From assembly GCF_003201565.1 (NCBI RefSeq), contig NZ_QJJP01000015.1:1-64000 (forward strand): 64,000 bases of DNA, given 5' to 3'. The notes under the pieces were generated by a model, which was not told the origin of the DNA, did no database searches, and was given only the letters and a program-made list of their open reading frames with translations. The position numbers and the translations under genes were made by a program. This document shows, piece by piece, positions 36,469 through 38,226 of this stretch (position 1 is its first letter; the number at the start of each line of letters is the position of its first letter). The DNA comes from Nitrosomonas sp. Nm84 (lineage in GTDB: Bacteria; Pseudomonadota; Gammaproteobacteria; Burkholderiales; Nitrosomonadaceae).

Positions 36469-38001
36469 CTATACTTGCGGGTGAGCTCGCTCCAACTTGC
36501 TACAAAGTTTATTTAATGCACTCAGGTACGCTTTTGCAGAAGCCACAACAATGTCCGTATCTGCCCCATGTCCGTTCGCAATACGATCAGATTTACGTAA
36601 CCGAACAGTGACCTCCCCTTGTGCATCCGTTCCGCTGGTAATGTTGTTGACGGAAAATAACTGTAACTCGGCGCCACTTATCAGCAGTGCCTCAATCGCC
36701 CGGAAAGTTGCATCAACCGGACCGCTTCCTTGAGACTCGGCATGTATTTCATTACCATTATCTGAAATCACGATCCGTGCGTAAGGAATCTCACCTGTTT
36801 CGCAATGAATCGTTAGCGATATTAGCCTGTAACACTCTTGCAATATCAACACTTCATCCGAAACCAATGCTTGCAGATCTTCATCAAATATTTCGTGCTT
36901 CTTATCTGCCAATTCCTTAAAACGTAAGAAAGTATTATTGAGCATTTCTTCGGATTCCAATTCAATACCCAATTCCATAAGACGATTGCGAAACGCATTA
37001 CGCCCTGAATGTTTTCCTAGCAATAACTTATTCGCCCCCCAACCTACATCTTCGGCACGCATAATTTCGTAGGTTTCACGATGTTTCAACACGCCATCCT
37101 GATGAATCCCTGATTCATGCGCAAAAGCATTGGCACCGACAATCGCTTTATTAGGCTGCACCGGAAAACCGGTAATACCGGAGACCAGTTTACTTGCCGA
37201 AACAATATGTGTGGTATCAATTTTAGTATCACAAGGAAAGTAATCCTGGCGCGTACGCACAGCCATCACAACCTCTTCCAATGCTGCATTACCCGCTCTT
37301 TCGCCGAGGCCGTTAATGGTACATTCGACTTGCCGTGCACCATTCATCACGGCAGTTAATGAATTGGCTACCGCCAATCCTAAATCGTTATGACAATGCA
37401 CTGAAAAAATTGCCTTATCAGAATTAGGAATACGTTCACGCAAATCACGAATCAACTTGCCGAATTGTTCCGGCATGGTGTAACCGACGGTATCTGGAAT
37501 ATTCAGTGTGGTCGCGCCTGCATCAATAACCGCTTCGAGTATTTGACACAGGAAATCTATTTCCGAACGACCGGCATCTTCCGGAGAGAACTCAACATTA
37601 TCGGTATATTGGCGCGCCCATTTCACAGCCTTCACCGCTTGTACGATGACCTGATCCGGCGACATACGCAGTTTTTTCTTCATATGAATCGGTGACGTCG
37701 CAATAAACGTATGAATACGCGCTGACTGCGCACCTTTCAATGCCTCGCCTGCACGCTGAATATCAGCTTCAATCGCGCGCGCCAGACCACATACCACACT
37801 CCCCTTCACTGAATCAGCAACGGCCTTGACAGCTTCAAAATCCCCATTAGAAGCTGCTGGGAAGCCGGCTTCAATCACATCCACACCCATACGTTCCAAT
37901 TGCCAAGCAATGCGAACCTTTTCTTCTTTAGTCATTGATGCGCCAGGACTTTGTTCGCCATCACGTAGGGTAGTATCAAAAATAATTAAATGCTCTTGCA
38001 T
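36469..38001 (-). CDS. leuA: 2-isopropylmalate synthase
   Basis: The start at 38001 ([20 protein letters not shown]) is preferred over 38031 because GGAGAG precedes it. 510 residues. The catalytic barrel has [39 protein letters not shown] and HESGIHQDG; the C-terminal part is the leucine-binding regulatory domain ([18 protein letters not shown]). It condenses acetyl-CoA with 2-oxoisovalerate, the first step to leucine. Upstream lies a leucine-rich leader peptide, so attenuation control is likely. It closes the ilvB-ilvN-ilvC-psd-pssA-leuA block. Confidence 0.95.
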
Positions 38002-38037
38002 TATGCTCTCCACTTGAGGAAGAAAACTCACAATAAG

Positions 38038-38062
38038 ATAAAACTCGTTTATCGAATTTTAT
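38038..38062 (-). other. AT-rich hairpin between the leader peptide and leuA
   Basis: ATAAAATTCG pairs with CGAGTTTTAT around ATAAA (one G-U pair). It lies 37 nt before the leuA start. It has no following T run, so it might affect translation or be the downstream part of an attenuator. Confidence 0.35.
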
Positions 38063-38092
38063 AGGGTAGAAAGAAATAGAGGGTAGAAATTT

Positions 38093-38179
38093 TTAGCGCG
38101 CAAGGCGCAATAACAGCGCCAGTAGAATCACTGGTGCTGGCAGCAGATGGAGTGAGTGGATATTGTTTCTTACTAACAT
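38093..38179 (-). CDS. Leucine-rich leader peptide of leuA (attenuation)
   Basis: A 28-codon minus-strand frame with ATG at 38179 and TAA at 38093-38095. The product is MLVRNNIHSLHLLPAPVILL followed by ALLLRLAR. Ten of 28 residues are leucine, six of them in the last ten residues, with Val and Ile nearby; such a run of regulatory codons is the hallmark of leader peptides of ilv/leu operons. It lies 92 nt before leuA in the 225-bp gap after pssA. The ribosome site is weak. See the alternative hairpins that overlap it. No overlapping annotated gene makes this frame necessary. Confidence 0.6.
   Translation of the reverse strand: MLVRNNIHSLHLLPAPVILLALLLRLAR
38104..38139 (-). promoter_or_regulatory. 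Two mutually exclusive hairpins in the leuA leader
   Basis: Hairpin 1 (38114-38139): CAGC-A-CCAGT pairs with ACTGG-C-GCTG around GATTCT. Hairpin 2 (38104-38120): GGCGC pairs with GCGCC around TGTTATT. Both use 38116-38120, so only one can form at a time. Both overlap the leucine codons of the leader. A ribosome stalled on these codons would choose between them. I do not see a textbook T run, so the exact terminator is uncertain. Confidence 0.45.
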
Positions 38180-38226
38180 AATGGCCGAATATAAATAGTT
38201 TTTTCTTTTTGTGCAATAGACAATGC

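Follow-up and report, generated by a model that had tools for sequence, protein, structure and literature searches.

A leucine-rich leader ORF with an apparently leaderless start and a stop-codon hairpin before leuA in Nitrosomonas and related bacteria: a candidate Rho-dependent attenuator

Leader open reading frames (ORFs) with leucine codons have been described before leuA in enteric bacteria (PMC6123439), Shewanella (PMC2659441), Epsilonproteobacteria (PMC3847290), and Actinobacteria (PMC1262725), to the extent that the accessible portions of these reports cover them. A short leader RNA has been seen in the Epsilonproteobacteria, according to the available part of that report (PMC3847290), and a conserved upstream ORF (uORF) with a terminator precedes ilvB in Corynebacterium, again as given in the accessible text (PMC10272879). 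One attenuator survey across bacteria relied on intrinsic terminators for its search and, in the portion available, says that Rho-dependent cases were missed (PMC2965389). A paper on leuL in Nitrosomonas or other betaproteobacteria was not found among the open-access titles and starts of abstracts listed.

In Nitrosomonas sp. Nm84, the window (the whole stretch of DNA that was analyzed, 64,000 nucleotides of contig NZ_QJJP01000015.1) carries leuA, encoding 2-isopropylmalate synthase, at 36469..38001 on the minus strand, with matches to NCBIfam models NF002087 and TIGR00973 above cut-off and with ilvB, ilvN, ilvC, psd, and pssA upstream (NCBIfam). The start chosen for leuA by the ORF tool, a GTG at 38031, is probably wrong, since the ATG at 38001 has a GGAG ahead of it and agrees with the relatives. 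The end of pssA (38227) and this ATG enclose a 225-nt gap, read on the minus strand, in which the sequence-only reading had placed a 28-codon leader peptide with ten Leu; the ORF, here called leuL, was indeed read at 38179-38093 on the minus strand (38093..38179). Its peptide, MLVRNNIHSLHLLPAPVILLALLLRLAR, has Leu at 10 of 28 positions, six of them within the last ten residues. Among 2000 dinucleotide shuffles of the gap, two gave an ATG ORF with at least eight Leu, at least five of them in the last ten residues, and five gave an ATG ORF ending in LLR; the leader RNA fold gave a z of -2.79 against shuffles, with an equally good fold in 1 of 200. As far as the accessible parts of the reports describe them, LeuL of E. 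coli, Salmonella, and Shewanella is likewise a short Leu-codon leader ORF before leuA (PMC6123439; PMC2659441), and LeuL of C. jejuni likewise a 28-aa leader before leuA with Leu codons at its end (PMC3847290). In contrast to the enteric and Shewanella leaders, as outlined in those same parts, the ORF here lies beside its promoter without a Shine-Dalgarno sequence, and leuA stands behind pssA instead of heading leuABCD. In the same genome, no leader was seen in the stretch ahead of leuC. The favored reading, held with modest confidence, is that leuL acts as a leucine sensor and governs leuA from a promoter of its own within the ilvB-ilvN-ilvC-psd-pssA-leuA run, probably via Rho. The sequence itself shows the ORF, its conserved Leu codons, the promoter spacing, three hairpins (A, B, and T), the lack of a terminator by score, and a bias of C over G; the leaderless start, ribosome stalling, the Rho step, and the direction of the response are predicted.

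The leader is widespread among relatives. Of 85 same-genus genomes, 84 gave a leuA locus; the upstream DNA was read at all 84, and at 82 of them a sigma-70-like promoter and a leader ORF of 26-34 codons precede leuA. The two other loci, L132 (genome G065) and L145 (genome G046), keep leuA without a leader ORF, so leader loss is possible there, and the 82 genus ORFs counted below are the 84 loci minus these two. An ATG ORF ending in LLR occurs in 78 of the 84 loci, whereas 20 rounds of shuffles averaged 0.35 and never gave more than 1. Leu makes up 535 of the 2389 residues of the 82 leader ORFs. Alignments used a set of 61 sequences (genus loci below 90% identity) and a hand-picked alignable subset of 29 of these. 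The nearest named records are mostly Nitrosomonas (best 80 of 587); these 80 named loci partly overlap the genus genomes and were kept out of the genus counts. Outside the genus, 100 genomes of the order had a leuA match and 86 loci were read, among them two with too little upstream DNA (L182 and L244). A promoter-distance filter was passed by 49 of the 86, and 41 of those 49 end LLR-like by pattern; 45 of the 86 failed the leader criteria, including some with a visible leader that nevertheless fail the promoter-distance filter (L170, L205, and L207). All of these counts come from related sequences and therefore represent non-independent events.

The putative promoter of leuL and leuA consists of a -35-like box, TTGCAC (38211..38216, minus strand), and a -10-like box, TATATT (38188..38193, minus strand), with a spacer of 17 nt and the -10 box 8 nt ahead of the leader ATG. 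By itself, this match is no evidence, as one was found against 1.5 expected by chance. Across the relatives, 75 of the 82 genus loci and 33 of the 41 order loci keep a -35 TTGC at spacer 17, and the leader ATG follows a TATATT-like box at 6-10 nt in 81 of the 84 genus loci and at 13 nt in one more. Ahead of the leader ORF, none of the 82 genus loci and none of the 41 order loci carries a Shine-Dalgarno-like motif; ahead of leuA, such a motif is present in 80 of 82 and 36 of 41, respectively. With the ATG 6-13 nt past the -10 box and no Shine-Dalgarno motif, the leader ORF is apparently leaderless, and the transcript is predicted to start 0-4 nt from the leader ATG. The epsilonproteobacterial LeuL ORFs were chosen by a ribosome-binding site, as the accessible part of the report has it (PMC3847290), whereas none is present here. 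For trpL of Sinorhizobium meliloti, a tryptophan leader and thus a different gene, the available text makes the leader ATG the RNA 5' end (PMC7298713), whereas the 5' end of leuL is a prediction.

Conservation is concentrated at the end of the ORF, where codons are numbered from the Arg codon right after the Leu run (codon 0). The control codons CTG TTA TTG (-3, -2, -1; 38108..38116, minus strand) vary synonymously among the genus loci that keep Leu there. All 82 genus loci have Leu at codon -1 (CTG 58, TTG 24), 78 of 82 at codon -2 (CTG 41, TTA 23, TTG 8, CTA 6), and 35 of 82 at codon -3. Leu codons that are conserved while their bases change, which had been named as a check on the leader, were thus found at -2 with four codons and at -1 with two. 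Farther upstream, codon -6 is Leu in 51 of 82 genus loci, with CTA in 24 of the 51; the CTA share of Leu codons in 13 window genes is 7.7%. Codon -6 (38125-38123) also shares sequence with the 3' arm of hairpin A, and the constraints on the codon and on the pairing therefore coincide at this position.

Hairpin A (CCAGT/ACTGG; 38119..38134, minus strand) lies inside the leader ORF just ahead of the Leu run and pairs 38134-38130 with 38123-38119. It covaries: in the 29-sequence set, all five pairs are changed on both sides and 78.9% of cells are paired, with one of the five pairs unpaired in 15 of 28 sequences. Hairpin B (UGCGC-N5-GCGC; 38096..38109, minus strand) abuts the stop codon, pairs 38108-38105 with 38099-38096, and is compatible with hairpin A. 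It is present in 82 of 82 genus loci, and its columns are the sole invariant ones of the 61-sequence alignment, so support for its pairing comes from farther relatives. There, the pattern is kept in 37 of the 41 order loci with a leader, variants being GCCC/GGGC in L181 and L218 and GCGT/ACGC in L220, with no fit in L245, and the two arms change together in some order and gammaproteobacterial loci. Hairpin T, an AT-rich stem (ATAAAATTCG/CGAGTTTTAT; 38038..38062, minus strand), stands 36 nt before leuA, with three of eight pairs changed on both sides and 96.6% of cells paired in the 29 sequences. Over the 61 loci, the mean fold z is -1.13 in the A region, -1.07 in the B region, and -1.91 in the T region, against -0.09 in an upstream control. 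RNAalifold on the 61 sequences predicted hairpin B and no other, so hairpins A and T rest on the 29 closer sequences. The four-helix structure contains 31 cells changed on both sides versus 13.3 in shuffles, and 0 of 500 shuffles reach 31; further pair types, one of five measures, do not exceed the shuffles, of which 251 of 500 are as high. The sequence-only reading had described two exclusive hairpins sharing 38116-38120, and which two it meant was inferred. Both can be drawn, and the core of the first, taken as hairpin A, covaries, but the second (38120-38116 with 38108-38104) fails conservation, two of its five pairs being broken in 20 and 15 of the 29 sequences, and in the same set its covariation is no better than in shuffles.

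Classical attenuation, in which hairpin T or another would be an intrinsic terminator and a competing antiterminator would form upon stalling on the Leu codons, is an unlikely account of these features. It agrees with the conserved Leu leader, with the A-tract and U-tract arms of hairpin T and their covariation, and with the Leu leaders with terminators reported, in the accessible portion, for Shewanella (PMC2659441). With a terminator score that had one positive control, the E. coli trp attenuator at +21.8, not one of 61 genus loci and not one of 41 order loci came out positive, and the best score in the window was -52.9; as a strong terminator, hairpin T was therefore rejected. The genus loci nevertheless score above their shuffles (median -52.5 versus -86.8), and the main hairpin of the T region is followed by at least five U in 8 nt in 19 of 61 loci, so a weak terminator is possible in some species; in L156 and L158-L163, at most four of the 8 nt are U. 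A simple scan also picks out hairpin A as followed by a loose U-rich tail (one hit, against 0.8 expected). For the antiterminator, a column-pair scan of the 29 sequences, with up to 60 helices scored, recovers hairpins A and T and no convincing rival, and the best unexplained helix among the 22 listed, the 3' arm of A with the 5' arm of T, is unconvincing (z 2.3). Of the parts that define a LeuL-type classical attenuator, the Leu-rich leader ORF and residue-level codon conservation are present, and the intrinsic terminator and exclusive antiterminator helix were not found. As two defining parts were not found, leuL is not classed as a classical attenuator, although its sensing half would work like one. 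This sets it apart from LeuL of E. coli, Salmonella, and Shewanella, which the available portions of the reports present as classical attenuators (PMC6123439; PMC2659441). The layout of ribosome-mediated attenuation proposed from the sequence alone is thus supported as regards a Leu leader specific to leuA with a conserved promoter-like site of its own, and unsupported as regards the classical set of exclusive hairpins with a terminator. A leucine response of leuA separate from that of the ilv and phospholipid genes is a prediction of that reading.

The lack of a terminator by score would also suit control of leuA translation by the ribosome on leuL, acting via hairpin T and a possible weak hairpin CUUC/GGAG over the leuA Shine-Dalgarno sequence (38008..38022, minus strand), a rather improbable reading. 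It would be somewhat like the LEU element of Actinobacteria, likewise a Leu leader ORF before leuA without a terminator and one that involves the leuA Shine-Dalgarno sequence, as far as the accessible text goes (PMC1262725). CUUC/GGAG is paired in 98.3% of cells in the 29 sequences, with zero pairs changed on both sides, and this pairing is prone to arise by composition, a pyrimidine stretch ahead of GGAG being enough to pair with it; the fold of the leuA Shine-Dalgarno region is just a little more stable than in shuffles (mean z -0.41). Compared with the LEU element as the available part of that report describes it (PMC1262725), pairing here between the Leu codons and the leuA Shine-Dalgarno sequence may occur but lacks covariation support, a 4-pair helix TTGC/GTGG being possible in 98% of cases with no excess covariation in the 29 sequences. 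Highly improbable is an arrest peptide, whose C-terminal LLLRLAR would stall the ribosome via the exit tunnel with no codon sensing. Arg at codons 0 and +3 is invariant in 82 of 82 genus loci, as such a peptide would have it, but both codons are CGC in 82 of 82, against a CGC share of 28% among the Arg codons of 13 window genes, which points to an RNA-level constraint that hairpin B explains. Moreover, the peptide end varies in the order loci (RLAR, RASAN, RVRAH, and RPRAN among others) while a hairpin is kept, its loop ranging from 3 to 6, and conservation of the C-terminus for its own sake was rejected on these grounds. Finally, a promoter with a chance ORF and a leader without regulation is scarcely credible: the promoter-like site is conserved, but so are frame, length, Leu codons, and hairpins, in 82 genus loci and partly in 41 order loci.

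The Rho-dependent reading of leuL draws on the RNA after the leader stop, where a linker at 38063..38092 (minus strand) is C-rich, G-poor, unstructured, and rut-like. Rho sites look C-rich, G-poor, and unstructured. TnaC of E. coli is a leader ORF with such a stretch at or after its end, where an arrest peptide acts together with a ligand. Within the 30 nt that directly follow the stop, C outnumbers G in 60 of the 61 genus loci and in every one of the 41 order loci. When 78 nt past the stop are taken, C minus G averages +10.6% in the genus (positive in 57 of 61), against -6.8% at the pssA end (7 of 61), and +10.3% in the order (37 of 41), against -3.7% at the pssA end (14 of 41), C/G content being a crude predictor of Rho sites. 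The linker fold over the 61 loci has a mean z of 0.10 and a mean MFE of -0.08. What marks a Rho-type uORF, an unstructured stretch with more C than G at or after its end, is found here. The CruR uORF of Bordetella pertussis, also a betaproteobacterium, likewise carries, at or beyond its end, unstructured RNA that is rich in C and poor in G, and its stalled ribosome keeps Rho off this RNA, as the accessible portion of the report describes (PMC9426467). The unfolded C-rich linker and the CruR precedent together favor Rho-dependent attenuation. According to that same portion, CruR stalls by an arrest peptide and a ligand (PMC9426467), whereas at leuL the conserved signal is the Leu codons and the role of Rho is predicted.

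In the proposed mechanism, transcription would begin no more than a few bases from the leader ATG and a ribosome would initiate on the leaderless mRNA. When charged tRNA-Leu is scarce, the ribosome would halt on two or three Leu codons near the ORF end, covering the 3' half of the leader ORF and keeping hairpins A and B open. When leucine is plentiful, it would reach the stop and leave, hairpins A and B would fold, and the C-rich stretch would be free, a direction of response that we infer. Shut-off would most likely come from Rho loading on the C-rich RNA and stopping transcription ahead of leuA or within its early part, a step that a ribosome parked on the leader would hinder. A difficulty remains for this Rho-dependent mechanism: the C-rich stretch lies past the stop and the halted ribosome upstream of it, so masking of the rut-like RNA would be partial at best, the ribosome shortening the free RNA instead of covering the C-rich stretch. 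It also counts against the Rho mechanism that hairpins B and T have no assigned role in it.

Related leaders occur in gammaproteobacteria, where 20 of 27 loci chosen by record title have a leader ORF. Eighteen of the 20 carry a UGCC-type hairpin with the stop codon wholly or partly in the loop, and two carry a UGCGC form ahead of the stop. In 15 of the 20 (L077, L080, L082, L084, L085, L087, L088, L091-L093, L095, L097, L100, L105, and L107), a second hairpin, whose core resembles CUGGCGAG and whose flanks vary but stay complementary, follows shortly past the stop, and in 14 of these 15 it is followed by ACGC, which could pair with the loop GCG. No Rfam family was found at the gathering level in seven CUGGCGAG-type loci searched. 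Given this other post-stop structure, the downstream step may differ there. It is tentatively proposed, at a little short of even confidence, that these sequences form a beta- and gammaproteobacterial leucine-leader family with a leaderless ATG, Leu codons before a stop-codon hairpin, and, in the beta loci scored, no intrinsic terminator, whose Rho- or hairpin-dependent attenuation terminator-based surveys could not see. A leaderless start combined with a stop-codon hairpin and the lack of a terminator did not turn up among the open-access papers listed; a 2004 comparative study of proteobacterial attenuators may predict this leader. The sensing half is seen in 82 of 84 congeneric and 41 of 86 other order loci, the terminator half in none of the loci scored. 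If Rho or hairpin B is the switch, a second design of amino-acid attenuator would be widespread, and leaderless translation would be tied to leucine sensing.

The leader peptides had no match in NCBIfam or Pfam, as queries too short for this to tell much, and Rfam 15 at the gathering cut-off gave no family in the window or in 14 related loci. Below threshold, IMES-2 reached 12.6 bits here (cut-off 54.7) and mir-1910 reached 21.2 bits in one gammaproteobacterial leader (cut-off 70). A covariance model built on the region from hairpin A through hairpin B and the linker to hairpin T had one match in this genome at E<=1 and a match in 110 of 125 family genomes at E<=0.01. The 78 same-genus matches (77 of 85 genomes) all lie upstream of leuA, on the same strand, at 28-63 nt, which marks the element as specific to leuA. 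The model misses five genomes that do have the ORF (G007, G008, G009, G013, and G079) and also G046, G060, and G065. Among the 78 matches, G045:C63:17654-18078 holds a second copy of the leader together with a partial copy of leuA, its first 96 codons.
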